The notes below the pieces were generated by a model that made no database searches, was not told the DNA's origin, and was given only the letters and a program-made list of their open reading frames with translations. This document shows, in pieces, positions 55,662 through 64,000 of a stretch of DNA of 64,000 nucleotides (the first letter of the stretch is position 1; the number at the start of each line of letters is the position of its first letter). The stretch is from NCBI RefSeq assembly GCF_023952475.1, contig NZ_JALHRX010000001.1, forward strand, positions 372,001 to 436,000, read 5' to 3'. The position numbers and the translations under genes were made by a program. The DNA comes from Cupriavidus sp. WGlv3. GTDB taxonomy: Bacteria > Pseudomonadota > Gammaproteobacteria > Burkholderiales > Burkholderiaceae.

Positions 55662-56138
55662 GTGCCCCAGCCCGCCGACACGCCTTCCGGCAAGCCCGCC
55701 GCCGACTATGACTTCACCGAGCAGGTGGGCCACCTGCTGCGGCGCGCCTACCAGCGCCATGTGGCGATCTTCCAGCAGACCATCCCCGATTCACAGCTGA
55801 CCGCGGCGCAGTTCGTGGTGCTGTGCGCGGTGCGCGACCGGCAGCCGTGTTCGATGAACGAGGTGGTGCGCGCGACCGCGATCGACCAGGCCACGGTGCG
55901 CGGCATCATCGACCGGCTCAAGTCGCGCAAGCTGATCGCGGTCTCGCATGATCCCAACGACCGGCGCAAGGTGGTTGTGACGGTCACGCCCGCCGGGCTG
56001 GCCCTGATCGACGAGACCGTGCCGTTCGCGAAGGAAATCTCGGAGCAGACCTTCGGCAGCCTGAATCCGGCCGAGCGCGTGGCGGTGACTTACCTGCTGC
56101 GCAAGATGAGCGAGATTGACGAGGGGAATGGCGGCTAG
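55662..56138 (+). CDS. nicR: MarR-family regulator, NicR-like
   Basis: A 158-residue MarR protein with a winged helix: LRRAYQRHVAIFQQ, LTAAQFVVLCAV, CSMNEVVRATAIDQATVRGIIDRLKSR as recognition region, and the wing DPNDRRKVVVTVTPAG. It is the best candidate for NicR, the repressor of nicotinate degradation genes in Pseudomonas putida, since it is in the nic locus and of the same family (Bordetella BpsR is a homologue). Start is a GTG at 55662, with no clear ribosome-binding site; a TATACT box lies about 32 bp upstream. Assignment rests on context and family, not on identity scores. Confidence 0.7.
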   Translation: MPQPADTPSGKPAADYDFTEQVGHLLRRAYQRHVAIFQQTIPDSQLTAAQFVVLCAVRDRQPCSMNEVVRATAIDQATVRGIIDRLKSRKLIAVSHDPNDRRKVVVTVTPAGLALIDETVPFAKEISEQTFGSLNPAERVAVTYLLRKMSEIDEGNGG

Positions 56139-56157: not shown

Positions 56158-56181
56158 CCCTCTCCCGCTTGCGGGAGAGGG
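56158..56181. repeat. Perfect hairpin, REP-like intergenic palindrome
   Basis: CCCTCTCCCGC-TT-GCGGGAGAGGG, 11-bp perfect arms with a 2-nt loop and no T run, in the 52 bp between the convergent nicR-like and nicB genes. Palindromes of this sequence type are repeated in many high-GC proteobacterial genomes. Confidence 0.7.
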
Positions 56182-56190
56182 AGTACACAA

Positions 56191-58479
56191 TCAGCTTTTG
56201 TTTGCGGACATCGATGCCATCGCCGCCAGCACCGTCTCCGGCACGAACGGCGGCCGGCGCAGGCGCACCCCCAGCGCATCGAACAATGCATTGGCAATCG
56301 CCGGCGCGCCCGGCAGCGAGGCCGATTCGCCCGCGCCTAGCGGCGGCTCTGACTGGCGCGGCATCAGCACCACCTCGATCGGCGGGATTTCCGGGAAGGT
56401 CAGCAGCGGATAGCTGCCCCATTCGCGGCTGGCGACACCGTCGGCATCGAAGCGGACCTGCTCCTTCAGCACGCGGCTGAGGGTCTGCACCACATTGCCG
56501 TGGACCTGGTGGCGCACGCCGTCGGGATTGACGACCATGCCGGTGTCCTGCCCCACCACCACCTTGTCGATGGTGATGCGGCCCGTGCCCGCGTCCACGG
56601 ACAGGTCCACCACCCACGCGGCCCAGGCCGCGCCGAAGCCGGGAAAACGGCTGTGGATGTAGCGCGCGTAGGCCACGCCCCGGCCGCGCAGCCGTCCTTC
56701 GGCATCCGGCACGCCGCGCGCTCCGGCCGCGCCGCGCTGCCAGCCGGCCGCGTCGGCGACGGCGCGCAGCAAATCCGCGGCGCGTTCATCCGGCAGGTGG
56801 CGCAGGCGGAATTCCACCGGATCGGCGCCCGCCTCCGCCGCCAGCTCGTCGATCACGCTCTCGTGCGCGAACGCATTGGGCAGCGCCGACACGCCGCGCA
56901 GCCACGACGCGCGCACGATCGCCGGCGTGTCGTCGCAGCCGATGCGGCGTGCGGCATACGCGTAGGGCGGCACCGCGGTGCGGTCGCCCATCTCAAGCGT
57001 GCGCGGCGCGTTGGGCACGACTCCGGTCAGCACCAGCGCCAGCGTGGGCGCGTCGTTGGACGGATAGCGGCTGGTGAAGTCGTAGCCGAGCAGCGCGCCA
57101 TCGGCGCCGAGCGTGGCGCTGACATCCATCAGCTGGGCCGCGCCCTTGGGCTCCCACAAGTGTTCCTGCTCGCGCGACAGCTGCACGCGCACCGGCCGCC
57201 CCACCGCACGCGACAGCAGCGCGGCGTCGGCGCAGACGTCGTCGGCACAATTGCGGCCGTAGCAGCCGGCGGCCTCCATGCGCACGATCTCGATGCTGTC
57301 CTCGCCGAGCCCGCACAGCCTGGACAGGTCGATACGCAGCATGTGCGGGTTCTGCGTGCCGGACCATACCGTCAGGCCCTCGTCGTGCCAGTCGGCCACG
57401 GCGCAGGACGGGCCGATGGAGCCGTGCATCTGGTACGGCCACACGTAGCGACGCTGCAATACCGTACCGGCGCCGCCGGCGGGCAGGTTGCCCTCGCTCA
57501 GCAGCTCGCGCCGCGTGGCCGGGTTAGCGCGCAGCGCCGGCTCCGGGTCGTCCAGCGCGGGCAACGGCGGCACCGGCTTCCAGTGAACGCGCAGCCGGCG
57601 CGCGGCCTGCACCGCATATTCCTCGCGCTCGGCCACCACGCCGACAAAGTCGCCCTGCACCACCACCTCGACCAGGCCGGGCAAGTCGCGCACCGAATCG
57701 CGGTCGATGGCCAGCAGACTGTTGCCGACGAAGGTGCCGCTGTCGCGCCCGGCATACGGTGGGCGCACCACGCGGCCGTGCAGCATGCCGGGGACGCGCA
57801 CGTCGTGGACGAAGGTCAGCGCCCCGCGCGCCTTGTCGGGGATATCGACGCGCGGCGCCGCGCGGCCGACGATGCGGTAGGACTCGACCGGCTTGACCGG
57901 CACGTCTTCGGCCAGCGGCAGCTCTACGTGCTCGCCGGCCACCAGCGCGGCGTAACGGATGCTGGCCTGCGTGCCGCGCACGCGGAATACGCCGCTCTCC
58001 GCTTCCAGCGCGGAGGCGTCGACGCCGAGCTGCAGCGCCGCGCGCGCCAGCAGCCACGCGCGCGCCTGGGCCGCCGCGCGGCGCAGCGGCAGCGCCGAGA
58101 TCTGGATCGAGGCGCTGGCGATGGTCGGGCCCTGGTTGGGCGTGGCCTCGGTATGGCCCAGCACCATGCGCACGTGATCGAGGGGTACATCGAGTTCTTC
58201 GGCGACGATCTGCGCCAGCGCGGTGCGGATGCCGGTGCCGAGGTCGACGTGGCCGTTGAAGGCCAGCACCTCGCCGCTGTCGCGCACGGCGATAAACAGG
58301 TCCGGCAGCGCGGGCACATAGTCCGACGCCGCGCCGGGCTGGCCCGGCGCCGGGCGCGCGGCCGCCTGCGGGGCGCGCGTCACCAGCAGCACGCCGGTGG
58401 CCTGCAGCAGCGCCAGCCGCAGTGCGCGTGGCGTGGCGGCGTCGGCCTGTGCCGGGGGTTGCAGCTGCGTTGCCGTCAT
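56191..58479 (-). CDS. nicB: Nicotinate dehydrogenase large subunit NicB, molybdopterin domain only
   Basis: The molybdenum subunit of nicotinate dehydrogenase, which hydroxylates nicotinate to 6-hydroxynicotinate. The 762 residues carry FNGHVDLGTGIRTALAQIVAEEL (short: GHVDLGTG), APRVDIPDKARG, RMEAAGCYGRNCADD and the active-site Glu in PPLGAGESAS. Close resemblance to the front two thirds of P. putida NicB is evident from memory. The protein ends right after the molybdopterin domain, without the C-terminal multi-haem cytochrome c part. nicA, the [2Fe-2S] subunit, is not next to it. GGAGAG precedes the ATG at 58479. Divergent from nicS. Confidence 0.88.
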   Translation of the reverse strand: MTATQLQPPAQADAATPRALRLALLQATGVLLVTRAPQAAARPAPGQPGAASDYVPALPDLFIAVRDSGEVLAFNGHVDLGTGIRTALAQIVAEELDVPLDHVRMVLGHTEATPNQGPTIASASIQISALPLRRAAAQARAWLLARAALQLGVDASALEAESGVFRVRGTQASIRYAALVAGEHVELPLAEDVPVKPVESYRIVGRAAPRVDIPDKARGALTFVHDVRVPGMLHGRVVRPPYAGRDSGTFVGNSLLAIDRDSVRDLPGLVEVVVQGDFVGVVAEREEYAVQAARRLRVHWKPVPPLPALDDPEPALRANPATRRELLSEGNLPAGGAGTVLQRRYVWPYQMHGSIGPSCAVADWHDEGLTVWSGTQNPHMLRIDLSRLCGLGEDSIEIVRMEAAGCYGRNCADDVCADAALLSRAVGRPVRVQLSREQEHLWEPKGAAQLMDVSATLGADGALLGYDFTSRYPSNDAPTLALVLTGVVPNAPRTLEMGDRTAVPPYAYAARRIGCDDTPAIVRASWLRGVSALPNAFAHESVIDELAAEAGADPVEFRLRHLPDERAADLLRAVADAAGWQRGAAGARGVPDAEGRLRGRGVAYARYIHSRFPGFGAAWAAWVVDLSVDAGTGRITIDKVVVGQDTGMVVNPDGVRHQVHGNVVQTLSRVLKEQVRFDADGVASREWGSYPLLTFPEIPPIEVVLMPRQSEPPLGAGESASLPGAPAIANALFDALGVRLRRPPFVPETVLAAMASMSANKS

Positions 58480-58512
58480 CGTTTCATTCTCTCCGTCACC
58501 GCTCACCTGATC

Positions 58513-58537
58513 TGGCCAAACCGGGCCACCGTTATAC
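58513..58537 (+). promoter_or_regulatory. nicS/nicB intergenic promoter and inverted repeat
   Basis: TGGCC (58513-58517) and GGCCA (58524-58528) with a 6-bp spacer lie just before a TTATAC -10 candidate (58532-58537) that would drive the TetR gene starting at 58571. A TetR autoregulatory site is plausible. Confidence 0.45.
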
Positions 58538-58570
58538 TGCGCCAACAGGCACCCAGCAGAACCACCCACC

Positions 58571-59326
58571 ATGACCACCAAGACTCCGGCCGCGCCCGCC
58601 ACCCCGCGGGCGGCAGCCGGCACCCGGGCCCGGCAGGCGCAGGACAGCCGCGAGCGCATCCTCAAGGCTGCCATCAAGGTCTTCGCCCAGCGCGGCTACG
58701 ACGGCGGCCGCATCGAACGCATCTCGTCGCTGGCCAAGACCTACGACCGGATGATCTACTACTACTTCGGCAGCAAGGAGAAGCTGTTCGTCGAAGTGCT
58801 GGAGACCATCTACCTGCAGCTCAACCAGGCCGAGCAGCAGCTGGAGCATGAGCTCGATGCCGCCGACCCCGTGCGCGCGCTGTCGCAGCTGATCGACTTC
58901 GTCTGGCAGTACTACCTGGACCATCCCGAGTTCGTCGCCATCCTGACCAGCGAGAACATGAGCCAGGGCAAGCACGCAAAGAAGTCGGTGCGGCTGCGCG
59001 AGATCTCCAGCTATGCGCTGTCGGTGCTCGACGGCATCCTTGCGCGCGGCAAGGACGCCGGGCTGTTCCGCGCGGACGCCGGCGCGCGCGACGTGTATAT
59101 GGTGATCGCTTCGCTCGGCTACTTCTATAACTCCAACCATCATACGCTCAGCGCCTTCCTGGGCGAGCCCATGATGAGCCCGCCCGCGCTGGCGCACTGG
59201 CGCGATGTGATCCAGCAGACCGTGCTGCGCACGGTGGCCGTGCCCGGCGCCGTGCCGGAGGCGCATGTGCCACCCGCCGCCGCGCCGCGCAAGGCGGCAC
59301 GCGCCAGGCGCGCGGCGGCAGGCTGA
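58571..59326 (+). CDS. nicS: TetR-family regulator, NicS-like
   Basis: A 251-residue TetR protein. The N-terminal HTH spans about residues 26-75 (ERILKAAIKVFAQRGYDGGRIERIS, short: ILKAAIKVFAQRGYDG; then TYDRMIYYYFGSKEKLF). The ligand-binding part includes the TetR_C_3-like DHPEFVAILTSENMSQGKH. The tail is basic and Ala-rich. It is divergent from nicB and convergent with nicF, the position of NicS in the P. putida nic cluster, where it controls the nicAB genes. Residue-level identity is not assessed. Confidence 0.75.
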   Translation: MTTKTPAAPATPRAAAGTRARQAQDSRERILKAAIKVFAQRGYDGGRIERISSLAKTYDRMIYYYFGSKEKLFVEVLETIYLQLNQAEQQLEHELDAADPVRALSQLIDFVWQYYLDHPEFVAILTSENMSQGKHAKKSVRLREISSYALSVLDGILARGKDAGLFRADAGARDVYMVIASLGYFYNSNHHTLSAFLGEPMMSPPALAHWRDVIQQTVLRTVAVPGAVPEAHVPPAAAPRKAARARRAAAG

Positions 59327-59353: not shown

Positions 59354-59989
59354 TCAGGCGGCGGCGCGCACGCCTGCCATTTGCGCCAGCGCCTGGTCGC
59401 GCGTCAGCACCGTGGCGTATTTCTGCGCCATGTCGAACAGGTTGGCCTCGTGCGGCCCCAGTGCGCGGTCGCCCACGCAATCCGACACCACCAGCGGGCG
59501 GAACCCCAACGACATGGCATCGACCACGCTGGCGCGCACGCAGCCGCTGGTGACGCAGCCCGCCACCAGCAGCGTCTGCACGCCGCGCTGCGTCAGCCAA
59601 GCCGCCAGCGAGGTGCCGAAGAACGCCGACGGCACCGTCTTGCGCACCACCAGCTCGCCCGCCGCGGGCGCCAGCTCGGGCACGATCTGGCTGTTGTGGC
59701 CGTCTTCCTTCAGCGTCAGCATGCCCGGCACCTTGAGCGTGAAGATGTTGTGGTCGCTGTCGTCGTCGGCGAACACGATGCGGCTGTGCGCCACCGGCCA
59801 GCCCTGCTCGCGCGCGGCGCGCAGCAGCGGCTGGGTGTTGCGGATGGCTTCAGGGATATTGCCGCCGCCGAACACCGCCGGATCGGCAAAGCCGTTGACG
59901 AAGTCGATGATCAGCAGCCCGTACGGCGCCTTCAGTTCCATCGCCGCGCCGAAGCCCTGGCGCTGGTAAGTCTGCACTGCGTCATCCAT
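59354..59989 (-). CDS. nicF: Maleamate amidohydrolase NicF
   Basis: Isochorismatase-like hydrolase that converts maleamate to maleate and ammonia. The catalytic triad of the fold is visible: Asp29 (IIDFVNG), Lys117 (VVRKTVPSAFFGT) and Cys150 (VTSGCVRASVV). The 211 residues match NicF. The start at 59989 overlaps the end of nicX by eight bases, which suggests translational coupling. It is the last gene of the nicE-nicD-nicX-nicF run on the minus strand. Confidence 0.92.
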   Translation of the reverse strand: MDDAVQTYQRQGFGAAMELKAPYGLLIIDFVNGFADPAVFGGGNIPEAIRNTQPLLRAAREQGWPVAHSRIVFADDDSDHNIFTLKVPGMLTLKEDGHNSQIVPELAPAAGELVVRKTVPSAFFGTSLAAWLTQRGVQTLLVAGCVTSGCVRASVVDAMSLGFRPLVVSDCVGDRALGPHEANLFDMAQKYATVLTRDQALAQMAGVRAAA

Positions 59990-61070
59990 GGCGCGAGTCC
60001 TTGTCTGCCTGATAGAGCGAGGCGGCCGGGGCATGGTGCCCGTCCATCACCTTGCCGCGCACCACCACCGGCTCGCCGTCGAGGCTGACGGTGCAGTGAC
60101 GCACGGGGATATCGATATGGCAGGCGGTGGTGCGGCTGCCGCCGGCTTCGTTGTTGGGGCCGAACGAGCACAGGAAGTTGCCCTCGTAGGCGCGTGCATC
60201 CATGCCGATGGTGGCCTCGCGGTCGTACATCGCCAGCGCCGACCAGCTCGCGCGCGGCTGCAGGCCCCAGCCGATATGCGACATGGCATACGCTTCCGGA
60301 TCGTTGAACGAGGCCATGTAGTCGGCCAGCAGCTCGGCATCGACGCCGCCTTCGATGCGGCGCACGTAGCCGGCCTCGACCGTGATGCGGATCGGCGCCT
60401 GCAGATACGACTTCATCGGCAGCAGGATGTCGCCGCGGTCCAGCACGATGGTGCCGTCGGTGCCGCCCTCGTCGGGCCAGGTCAGCACGAAGCCGCTCGG
60501 CCAGTGGTCCCAGCGCCCGGGCTCGTCGACAAAGCCATACTCGCTGATCGCGGGAAATTCGCCCAGGCGGCAGCGCAGGTCCATGCCGGCATCGGACACG
60601 ATATGCATCTCGCGCGCCTTGCCCAGCCGCTGCGTGGCGGCCTTGACGCGCGCGCGGTCGGCCTCGGTCGGCACCAGCCGCGCCAGCACCTCTGGGGGCT
60701 CCACCGCCAGCAGGATCTTGGTGCCGCCGGACAGGATCTCGTGCTGCTCGGGCGAGAACAGCAGCGTCATCAGGTCCAGCACCAGGTCGCTCGCCTTCAG
60801 CGCGGCGATCGCCGCCGGATTGCCGGTCAGCGGCGTGGTGCCCAGGTAGGCCAGCGCATCGCGGCTCAGCGCCTTCTCGCCGTTGACGGGCGGCAGGTCG
60901 AGCCGGTTGACGATGGCGCCCATCGACTGCGCCGCCACCATTGCCGTGCGCAGCGTCTGCGGATGCGTCGCGGCGCCGGTGAGCACGGTGACGGTCTGTC
61001 CGCGCTGCAGCTTCGACAGCGTCAGCACCTGCTTCCACGCTGCCGTCAGGTCGTAATCGCTTACGGGCAT
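59982..61070 (-). CDS. nicX: 2,5-dihydroxypyridine 5,6-dioxygenase NicX
   Basis: Extradiol ring-cleavage enzyme that opens 2,5-dihydroxypyridine to N-formylmaleamate. The 362 residues carry the non-haem iron ligands His265 (MSHIGWGL), His318 and Asp320 (CHIDIP), at the same positions as I recall for P. putida NicX. GLVT-type active-site motif PNNEAGGSRTT is also present. It lies between nicD (28 bp) and nicF (overlapping). Confidence 0.95.
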   Translation of the reverse strand: MPVSDYDLTAAWKQVLTLSKLQRGQTVTVLTGAATHPQTLRTAMVAAQSMGAIVNRLDLPPVNGEKALSRDALAYLGTTPLTGNPAAIAALKASDLVLDLMTLLFSPEQHEILSGGTKILLAVEPPEVLARLVPTEADRARVKAATQRLGKAREMHIVSDAGMDLRCRLGEFPAISEYGFVDEPGRWDHWPSGFVLTWPDEGGTDGTIVLDRGDILLPMKSYLQAPIRITVEAGYVRRIEGGVDAELLADYMASFNDPEAYAMSHIGWGLQPRASWSALAMYDREATIGMDARAYEGNFLCSFGPNNEAGGSRTTACHIDIPVRHCTVSLDGEPVVVRGKVMDGHHAPAASLYQADKDSRHG

Positions 61071-61098: not shown

Positions 61099-61929
61099 TC
61101 AATTCAGCGACGCGCCGAGGAAATCGCCGAAGGCGCGGTAGAAGCCGGCCTCGTCGTCCCACGGGATCATGTGCCCGGCATTGGCGACGTGCGCGACCAG
61201 CAAGCCCGGCAGCAGCGTGCGCATCTCCTGCACGTCTTCCGCGCGGATCACGTCGCCGCGGCCGGCGGTCATCAGCAGCGCCGGCACGGCGAGCTGCGGC
61301 AGGTCGGCGTGGATGTCGTCCTCGTGGAAGCCGTTGAAGCTGGCCAGGATCGCGCGCTCGTCGCAGGTATGCAGCCATTGCGCGCGCAGGCGCAGCTGGT
61401 CCTCGGTCCAGGTCGGGCAGAAGGCGCGCATGCCTTCGGCGTCGATGCCGTGCTGCGCCAGCCGGATCGAATCGATGTACCACGGCAGTTGCGACGGGTA
61501 GGCGCGGCGCCCCGGACCCGACACCGGCGGATCGACCAGCACCAGCCGCGTCAGGCCCGCGGGCTTGGCGCGCGCGGCGCGGATGCCGATGCGCGCGCCC
61601 ATCGAATGGCCGACCACGGCATAGCGCTGCAGTCCCAGCGCCTCGGCAAAGGCGACCACGTCGGCGGCCTGCGCATCGAGGCCGTAGTCCAGCTCCGGGC
61701 CGGACTGCGACAGGCCGCGGCCGCGCACGTCGAGCACATAGGTATCGAACTGCTGGCCGAAGCGCTCGCCGACAAAGCCCCAGGTCACCGCGGGACTGGT
61801 GATGCCCGGCACGATGATGACGGCATCGCGCTGCGCGCGCGCGCCCGCCTGCCCGCCATAGCGCAGGTAGTGCTGGCGGATGCCGTTGGCGTGGACGTGG
61901 GCGCCGTAGAGAAAGGTGCTGTCTGCCAT
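61099..61929 (-). CDS. nicD: N-formylmaleamate deformylase NicD
   Basis: Alpha/beta hydrolase that removes formate from N-formylmaleamate to give maleamate. The 276 residues contain the nucleophile Ser109 (VVGHSMGAR), Asp133 (LVDPPV) and His253 (NAGHMIPWD), an intact triad, and the oxyanion region VPGITSPAVTWGFVGE. All three triad residues show the same eight-residue offset from the P. putida enzyme as I recall it. nicE ends 11 bp upstream. Confidence 0.94.
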   Translation of the reverse strand: MADSTFLYGAHVHANGIRQHYLRYGGQAGARAQRDAVIIVPGITSPAVTWGFVGERFGQQFDTYVLDVRGRGLSQSGPELDYGLDAQAADVVAFAEALGLQRYAVVGHSMGARIGIRAARAKPAGLTRLVLVDPPVSGPGRRAYPSQLPWYIDSIRLAQHGIDAEGMRAFCPTWTEDQLRLRAQWLHTCDERAILASFNGFHEDDIHADLPQLAVPALLMTAGRGDVIRAEDVQEMRTLLPGLLVAHVANAGHMIPWDDEAGFYRAFGDFLGASLN

Positions 61930-61940
61930 GGCCCGCTCCT

Positions 61941-62708
61941 TCAGTACGCGCCCGACAGCAGCGCGCCGGCGCCCGGCACCACCGGCTCCAGCCCCAGGCG
62001 CTTGAGCAGCGCATAGGTGGTGGCAACGGCGGCGGTGACGACCGGCTTGCCGGTCATGGCCTCGACCTTCGCTACCGCCGGCAGCGACGGCATCTGCACG
62101 CAGGCCGACAGCACGATCACGTCGGCATCGGCGGTGTTCATCTGCGCAACGATCTCCGGCAGCCTGGCCGGGTCATGGCGGCCGACCTCCAGGTTGTCGG
62201 GGATCTCCAGCGCGCGGTAGTCGACCACCTCGTAGCCTTCATTGCGGATGTAGTCCACCACCAGTTCGGTCAGCGGCTTCATGTACGGCGCCACCACCGC
62301 GATGCGCTTCGCGCCCATCACCTTGAGCGCATCGACCAGCGCACCGGCGCTGGTGATCACCGGCGCGTCGCCGCCGTTCTCGGCGGTATGCGCCTGCAGG
62401 CGCTGCTCGGAGACACGGTGGTAGCCGTGGCCCATCGCCATGATCGCCACCAGGCAGGCGTAGCCGAGCACGTCGACGCGGGCGTCGCTCAGTTCCACCG
62501 CGCAGCGGTCGGATTCCGCATCCATCGCGGCCAGTTCTTCCTTGACCACCTTCTTCATCCGCATCCGGCTCGAGTGGAAGGTGAAGCGCTCCGGGCGCAC
62601 CAGCTGGCGCGCGGCCAGCATCGCCGGGATCTCGGTTTCCATGGTGGTGTTGGAGCTCGGCACGATCTGGCCGATTCGGAAAACTGTCTGCACTGTCGAC
62701 TCCGTCAT
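61941..62708 (-). CDS. nicE: Maleate isomerase NicE
   Basis: Asp/Glu racemase-fold enzyme that isomerises maleate to fumarate. The two catalytic cysteines are Cys85 (GYACLVAI) and Cys203 (SACVQMPSL); the N terminus has the FRIGQIVPSSNTTMETEIP signature. The 255 residues start at 62708 with AAGGG upstream. It is the first gene of the minus-strand operon and faces nicC across a 361-bp regulatory region. Its fumarate product enters the TCA cycle. Confidence 0.94.
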   Translation of the reverse strand: MTESTVQTVFRIGQIVPSSNTTMETEIPAMLAARQLVRPERFTFHSSRMRMKKVVKEELAAMDAESDRCAVELSDARVDVLGYACLVAIMAMGHGYHRVSEQRLQAHTAENGGDAPVITSAGALVDALKVMGAKRIAVVAPYMKPLTELVVDYIRNEGYEVVDYRALEIPDNLEVGRHDPARLPEIVAQMNTADADVIVLSACVQMPSLPAVAKVEAMTGKPVVTAAVATTYALLKRLGLEPVVPGAGALLSGAY

Positions 62709-62793
62709 CTGTTTGTCTGCCCTTGGTTGCGCTTTGGTCGCGCTCGCGGTCGGTCTGCCTGCAGCAGGCCTAGGGGCCTGCATGCTGCGAACG

Positions 62794-62822
62794 ATTGTAG
62801 TGTACACACTTTATATAGGCAA
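62794..62822 (-). promoter_or_regulatory. nicE operon promoter with operator
   Basis: On the minus strand TTGCCT (62817-62822), 17-bp spacer, TACAAT (62794-62799). The spacer contains the 12-bp site AGTGTACACACT (plus strand, 62799-62810), so a bound regulator would block RNA polymerase. Confidence 0.7.

Positions 62823-62925: not shown

Positions 62926-64000
<1,075 letters not shown>

Follow-up and report, generated by a model that had tools for sequence, protein, structure and literature searches.

The 64,000-nucleotide stretch of Cupriavidus sp. WGlv3 analysed here (the window; C1:372001-436000 of a 162-contig, 6.75 Mb genome) carries a nic cluster, in which the gene nicB1 (56191..58479, minus strand) encodes a cytochrome-free catalytic molybdopterin subunit of nicotinate dehydrogenase of 762 amino acids (aa). 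Nicotinate is vitamin B3, the dehydrogenase opens its breakdown, and the pathway concerned occurs in several Burkholderiales genera. The nicB1 open reading frame (ORF) starts with ATG, and its product contains all of the tested motifs, with GAGESAS beginning at residue 715 and followed by 41 residues to the C terminus. Pfam assigned MoCoBD_2 and MoCoBD_1 to NicB1 and nothing else; neither a cytochrome c nor a Fer2 domain was found in this search, and the protein contains no CxxC motif. By these two domains together with its cofactor and catalytic-Glu motifs, NicB1 belongs to the large subunits of the xanthine oxidase family.

The original prediction for this gene had the product stopping after the molybdopterin domain, free of cytochrome, which the Pfam result and the absence of CxxC bear out. 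It gave about 45 residues after GAGESAS, close to the count, and a 91-base-pair (bp) gap to a divergent nicS in place of an adjoining NicA; the gap is exactly 91 bp. The fused layout that it described fits the NicB in the nic cluster of Pseudomonas fulva, whose 1187 aa include the MoCoBD_2, MoCoBD_1, and cytochrome c domains in one frame. This Pseudomonas-type arrangement, one NicB with both the molybdenum cofactor (Moco) domains and cytochrome c beside nicA, is not what the window locus holds.

The partner genes lie directly behind nicC, just past base 64000, where a search of the genome, as proposed in that prediction, found a [2Fe-2S] protein and a second NicB-like frame. The nicA gene (C1:436319-436816, equal to L028:10320-10817, plus strand) encodes a [2Fe-2S] subunit of 165 aa and begins 319 bp beyond the window end, with nicC ending at L028:10231. 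Its stop codon is overlapped by the GTG start of nicB2 (C1:436813-439764, equal to L028:10814-13765, plus strand), whose product of 983 aa combines a degenerate molybdopterin half, a transmembrane (TM)-like segment, and a tri-haem cytochrome c. NicB2 starts, here and in other loci, were placed at the earliest start codon downstream of nicA, which makes NicB2 lengths approximate; the loci L190 and L196 came without upstream sequence. Genes for NicA, NicB1, and NicB2, the set expected of a tripartite enzyme, are present at one nic locus, with 5.8 kb between nicB1 and nicA. We consider it likely that a fused NicB was duplicated, that its copies lost complementary parts, and that the window gene supplies the catalytic half of the split nicotinate dehydrogenase that resulted.

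The molybdopterin half of NicB2

Of the three haem motifs in NicB2 of the window genome, the most N-terminal is at residue 607, and a TM-like segment occupies about residues 545-575 (L028:12446-12538). Pfam scored its MoCoBD_1 below threshold (25.3 bits against a 27-bit cut-off) and did not list MoCoBD_2, whereas both Moco domains and the cytochrome c were scored in the fused NicB of P. fulva.

We counted motifs in 162 proteins, comprising 117 catalytic ones (72 fused NicB, 41 NicB1, and 4 subunits from three-gene clusters) and 45 NicB2 taken as stop-free frames. The motifs m1-m4 and m6, which we take to be the Moco-binding and catalytic motifs of the family, separated the two groups. Both m1 and m4 were present in 116/117 catalytic proteins, and m2 and m3 (GCYGRN) in all 117, while each of the four was found in 0/45 NicB2. 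Similarly, m6 (GxGE[S/A]) occurred in 117/117 catalytic proteins as compared to 4/45 NicB2 by pattern, and those four matches all fell within the cytochrome half. Three or more CxxCH motifs were present in 45/45 NicB2 and 72/72 fused NicB, but in 0/41 NicB1. At the level of sequence, the motif losses of NicB1 and NicB2 are complementary, and NicB2 does not qualify as a xanthine-oxidase-family large subunit. Given these failed motif tests, we reject the view of NicB2 as a second catalytic subunit. The occurrence of the same motif-less form in the 45 NicB2 from many genomes, all selected as stop-free frames, argues against an assembly error peculiar to this genome.

When aligned to catalytic homologues, NicB2 was found to lack the N-terminal Moco lobe, GCYGRN, RGVSA-PN, and the GxGE at the catalytic-Glu position, and to retain the tail AAAAxANAxxDATGVRxRxPPF directly ahead of the TM-like segment. 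Among 192 residues that are near-invariant in the catalytic proteins, 30 were kept in at least 80% of the 45 NicB2: 0/33 in the N-terminal lobe, 10/14 in 537-582, 7/14 in 583-640, 8/8 in the tail, and 5 elsewhere. The initial alignment grouped 30 split NicB1 and 4 three-gene subunits under one B1 label, and the residue-conservation count omitted L214. The same initial alignment took NicB1 frames of 700 aa or more (omitting L130 and L131, cut by the locus end, and L099, which is intact) and cytochrome frames of 780 aa or more (omitting the free cytochromes of L113, L114, and L137 and the frames of L123, L143, and L146, which are not whole).

The dead half is longest, with about 580-650 residues before the first haem, in the window's genus and a small number of other genera, and shortest, with 406-457 residues, in some Burkholderia/Caballeronia-type loci. 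All 14 split-type NicB2 among the best 80 named loci possess the molybdopterin half; our second collection of NicB2 took frames of 780 aa or more and is therefore silent on whether any NicB2 lacks it.

An AlphaFold2 (AF2) model of NicB2 from C. necator, built on 49 alignment rows (14 NicB2 and 35 fused), reached a mean predicted local distance difference test (pLDDT) of 83.8, and 33 of the 40 ten-residue blocks in positions 21-420 averaged above 80. The fused rows in the alignment help this fold. The dead half of the model (approximately residues 17-539) aligned with large subunits of the xanthine oxidase family over about 420-480 residues (Z up to 27.5, root-mean-square deviation [rmsd] about 4 Å), and the cytochrome aligned with 8gy3_A (Z 39.6, rmsd 3.1). 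The dead half is thus modelled with a xanthine-oxidase fold.

Selection was assessed by simple pairwise counting on these GC-rich genes, with 11 sequences from close relatives and 55 pairs for each region (the NicB1 set differs by one species). The median ratio of nonsynonymous to synonymous substitution rates (dN/dS) of the dead half was 0.257 (range 0.168-0.409), as compared to 0.084 for the cytochrome, 0.094 for NicA, 0.080 for NicC, and 0.144 for NicB1. By this measure, purifying selection on the molybdopterin half of NicB2 is relaxed but evident.

Distribution of fused and split arrangements

Within 60 genomes of the window's genus, both nicB genes were found in 41, NicB2 only in one, NicB1 only in none, and neither in 18. 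We take this genus to be Cupriavidus, as named loci from Cupriavidus were the nearest relatives. NicB1 (at least 72% identity) was thus present in 41/60 genomes and NicB2 (at least 58%) in 42/60. The genome with NicB2 only (G049) is 78% complete, and its NicB2 is a fragment. The NicB2 match of G053, which ends at a contig end and has an internal stop, is part of this count and stands outside the 45. The co-occurrence of the two genes is near-perfect (Fisher p ~2e-14 over the 60 genomes, kinship ignored).

We mapped further loci hand-picked from capped match lists to span genera, a non-random sample, and found three arrangements. In the first, a fused NicB adjoins nicA (L104-L110). In the second, three genes adjoin one another and the cytochrome is a free protein of 435 aa (L113 and L114; the locus end truncates L137). 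In the third, split arrangement, nicB1 usually occupies the nicR end of the cluster, and nicA-nicB2 come after nicC; nicA precedes nicB2 in those split loci whose upstream stretch was available. The named scan keeps the best 80 loci, and these comprised 14 split, 65 fused, and 1 fragment (L214). Split loci among them came from Cupriavidus, an Oxalobacteraceae isolate, Advenella, Caballeronia, Paraburkholderia, Burkholderia ubonensis, Paracidovorax, Delftia, Achromobacter, Salinicola, and one metagenome-assembled genome, and the fused ones included Pseudomonas, Bradyrhizobium, and Rhizobium. A separate full NicB1 was present in 11 of the 14 split loci, L220 had a partial one, and L190 and L196 were cut by contig ends. 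In many fused loci, the fetched stretch contained no further nic gene, and their substrate may therefore differ.

The gene order varied among the split loci. In Advenella (L174), nicB1 is divergent and adjoins nicA, with nicC further along; in Salinicola (L220), nicC and nicA point away from each other. The latter locus, from the gammaproteobacterium Salinicola corii, has a split-type nicA-nicB2 and only a partial NicB1 match within the fetched stretch, and horizontal transfer of its nicA-nicB2 is possible.

Proposed assembly and rival explanations

We propose that a Pseudomonas-like fused NicB gene, encoding a molybdopterin half, a TM-like segment, and a tri-haem cytochrome c, was duplicated and that the copies shed complementary parts. 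NicB1 would have kept the Moco and active-site motifs and shed the TM-like segment and the cytochrome, and NicB2 would have kept the latter two and shed the N-terminal Moco lobe and the tested active-site motifs. The duplication is probable, and its direction is put forward tentatively. A quick Moco tree of 67 rows united the 22 split NicB1 in a single clade (support 98), whose sister was fused NicB of the same family. The trees omitted the fragments L184, L188, L199, and L214, and the Moco tree also 25 redundant named loci.

The best PDB sequence matches of NicB1, NicA, and the NicB2 cytochrome were chains C, B, and A of 8gy3, respectively, so that molybdenum (Mo), Fe-S, and tri-haem cytochrome subunits each have a homologous chain in this complex. 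This match suggests an electron path. NicB1 would hydroxylate nicotinate at its Mo centre, and electrons would pass to the [2Fe-2S] clusters of NicA, on to the three haems of NicB2, and from there to the respiratory chain. The degenerate half of NicB2, if still folded as predicted, would hold NicA-NicB1 at the membrane-bound cytochrome. We infer a single complex with this electron path and, as the probable role of the dead half, docking of NicA-NicB1 to the membrane cytochrome. A passage of an earlier study states that crystal structures of the family up to 2014 were dimeric, with PaoABC as an exception that lacks dimerisation through the Moco domains (PMC3958847). A putative NicB1-NicB2 contact through the old dimer surface is possible.

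In both fused NicB and NicB2, a hydrophobic segment with basic residues ahead of it lies just upstream of the haems. If this segment spans the membrane, catalysis would be cytoplasmic and the haems periplasmic. The Mo subunits of four three-gene clusters have a twin-arginine (RR)-type leader, whereas inspection by eye found no RR leader in the window NicB1, only a decayed remnant. Most printed fused NicB N termini likewise show a decayed remnant; some rows keep the RR, and that of L168 is still similar to a twin-arginine translocation (Tat) leader. This raises the question of how electrons from a Mo centre seemingly without an export leader reach presumably periplasmic haems.

Taken to its full extent, the proposal would mean that, in Cupriavidus-like bacteria and several other Burkholderiales, the dehydrogenase is an obligate hetero-assembly that contains a pseudoenzyme as a built-in part. 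The contact between the molybdopterin halves of two NicB would have become a NicB1-NicB2 contact, and NicB2, having given up catalysis, would serve as membrane dock and electron exit. A Tat-less catalytic site would be cytoplasmic and the haems periplasmic, so that electrons would cross the membrane, and the halves would stand behind different promoters, NicB1 next to nicS and NicA-NicB2 after nicC with its conserved GTGTACAC palindromes. We put forward this complete version tentatively and regard it, in all its parts, as rather doubtful.

Several observations weigh against the proposal. The dead half has about three times the dN/dS of the cytochrome, and in those Burkholderia/Caballeronia-type loci where it is shortened to 406-457 residues, much of it is dispensable. 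A Glu is present in the catalytic-Glu column of 9/45 NicB2 over the whole alignment, with the GxGE context absent. With the 14 NicB2 rows only, AF2 gave a mean pLDDT of 56, the cytochrome included, although several blocks in residues 21-90 and 141-220 averaged 87-93; this control is weak because the cytochrome was poor too. The nearest solved complex, 8gy3, lists a single copy of each chain and so does not provide the contact between two molybdopterin halves that the docking idea assumes for the ancestor. The topology was read from hydropathy and from leader sequences inspected by eye. Last, a slower cytochrome tree of 93 rows, which carries a long-branch warning, required 3 changes for the split label. 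Fused rows of Pseudomonas/Tatumella and of Acetobacter conturbans sit among the split ones in it, which makes any order of events and number of origins tentative. A single origin of the split is favoured by the Moco tree and not shown by the cytochrome tree.

Alternatively, the dead half could be a slowly eroding relic, kept in frame with the cytochrome and serving merely as an N terminus for the TM-like segment. This explanation is possible, and its relaxed dN/dS, together with insertions and marked shortening in some genera, would agree with it, as would the fact that dead halves from other genera share little identity with that of the window genome (29-38% where matched). A relic fits less well with a dN/dS below 1 in 55/55 pairs, with the 30 near-invariant residues kept, including the complete tail before the TM-like segment, or with the presence of the half in every split-type NicB2 among the best named loci.

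NicB1 and NicA-NicB2 might instead be separate enzymes, in which case NicB1 would hydroxylate a different substrate with a different Fe-S partner, and nicA-nicB2 would be a decayed nicotinate dehydrogenase. The whole genome contains 12 Fer2_2 matches, and nicB1 is 5.8 kb away from nicA and has a different upstream region. Against this stand the co-occurrence in the genus, in which NicB1 is never found on its own, the position of nicA ahead of nicB2 in split loci, and the 54-65% identity of NicB1 to fused NicB proteins next to a NicB2 that has no recognisable active site; we judge this explanation very unlikely. A true loss of the cytochrome from NicB1 with an inactive dehydrogenase, one of the options in the original prediction, has only the missing cytochrome module within the window in its favour and is practically ruled out, because nicA and the cytochrome-bearing nicB2 come straight after nicC and because NicB1 keeps every tested motif and a low dN/dS.

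The presence of nicA and nicB2 behind nicC comes close to the other options that the prediction had named, an electron transfer chain encoded elsewhere or another Fe-S/cytochrome pair; that the second gene lacks the complementary, catalytic part was not visible from the window. The prediction had also held that nicA and cytochrome genes behind nicC, or in one order in all relatives, would speak for an ordinary split arrangement; the former is the case in this genome and in most mapped split loci, while the Advenella and Salinicola loci deviate from a common order. Viewing the locus as a whole guards against annotating NicB1 as a truncated or orphan enzyme and NicB2 as a second catalytic subunit.

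Neighbouring genes and known systems

The gene nearest to the 3' end of nicB1 encodes a nicR-like MarR regulator (55662..56138, plus strand), convergent with nicB1. Between the two lies a hairpin (56158..56181), outside the enzyme gene, with the core CTCTCCCGC-TT-GCGGGAGAG at 56160-56179 (on average 0.00 occurrences when the window was shuffled 100 times). It had been placed at a lost boundary; the palindrome is real, but it is not a deletion scar, as CTCTCCCGC-N2-GCGGGAGAG has 75 genomic copies with varying loops, compared to 0 for the reversed control. Some copies form close pairs about 95 bp apart, and the hairpin looks like a dispersed palindromic repeat.

On the other side, the 91-bp divergent promoter region (58480..58570) leads to a nicS-like TetR regulator (58571..59326, plus strand), named from resemblance and position. 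It is followed by genes on the minus strand for a nicF-like isochorismatase-fold amidase (59354..60034), a nicX-like ORF (59982..61070; named from its cluster position, with no match in Pfam and NCBIfam), a nicD-like alpha/beta hydrolase (61099..61929), and a nicE-like isomerase related to Amdase/EutA (61941..62807). The upstream bound of the last is its first start codon, and the true start may be further downstream. The nicC-like gene for a flavin adenine dinucleotide (FAD) monooxygenase (62986..64000, plus strand) is cut by the window end; its full frame is C1:434986-436230, with TTG as the listed start and the true start probably downstream of it.

The palindrome GTGTACAC occurs exactly twice in the window, both times in the nicE-nicC gap, on the nicE side (62800..62807) and on the nicC side (62992..62999). 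Two sites of this type were present in this gap in 17/20 loci (one in L145, none in L136 and L138), and none in the nicB1-nicS gap, including that of the window, in the 12 loci where this gap was measured. These palindromes are putative NicR operators, and nicA-nicB2 may be co-transcribed with nicC; a promoter and terminator scan over nicC-nicA-nicB2 gave counts near chance. A short conserved element in the nicB1-nicS gap, TATACT, which reads CGTTATACTG in close relatives, is possibly part of a promoter or operator. The two enzyme halves may answer to two regulators. A nicS-like gene was not found beside nicB1 in some same-genus loci (L093 and L097), nor in the mapped split loci from other genera, such as L103 and L129-L145, and the control of nicB1 must therefore differ there.

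Two same-genus genomes (L122 and L128) have an extra Mo/Fe-S/cytochrome cluster, with a NicA-like gene between a free cytochrome and the Mo subunit. Its proteins are 36-60% identical to the nic proteins, and it is probably a different hydroxylase.

The nearest solved complex is the membrane-bound aldehyde dehydrogenase of Gluconobacter oxydans (8gy3), presumably an AldFGH-type enzyme, whose chains match the subunits described here. In contrast to NicB2, its cytochrome chain of 444 residues has no molybdopterin-like half, and its Mo subunit has an RR-type leader of which none is apparent in the aligned NicB1. The three-gene NicA-NicB-cytochrome clusters (L113, L114, and L137) resemble the window system in their cytochrome-free Mo subunit, but differ in the free cytochrome (435 aa in L113 and L114), the adjacency of the genes, and the Tat-type leader on the Mo subunit. 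The three-subunit enzyme NdhS/L/M is perhaps of this type, although a passage describing it calls the third subunit a flavoprotein (PMC10331938). Together, fused, three-gene, and split forms with longer or shorter dead halves offer a natural series in which to study how a duplicated molybdoenzyme becomes a catalyst and a dead partner.

The split itself is not new, because enzymes of NicA, NicB1, and NicB2 have already been named. Passages in print describe a tripartite nicotinate hydroxylase in Burkholderia gladioli and Bordetella (PMC10269826) and list nicA, nicB1, and nicB2 in Delftia acidovorans Cs1-4 (PMC4572682). The Delftia gene order as given there resembles that of the window genome, with nicB1, labelled an aldehyde dehydrogenase, and nicB2-nicA-nicC at opposite ends. 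These passages of PMC10269826 and PMC4572682 are silent on a degenerate NicB2 half. Our literature search found no statement of such a half, which papers of 2018 on Bordetella and 2008 on P. putida may describe, and nothing on a dead partner in the xanthine oxidase family. What appears to be new relative to the known split is a molybdopterin half that is apparently dead, yet has been retained in fusion with the cytochrome. The fused 1187-aa NicB of P. fulva and P. guariconensis provides the reference for both genes: NicB1 is 59-60% identical to its Moco half, and the NicB2 cytochrome is 59-61% identical to its cytochrome. Thus, whereas Pseudomonas has one fused catalytic gene adjoining nicA, the window genome has two genes with complementary losses.

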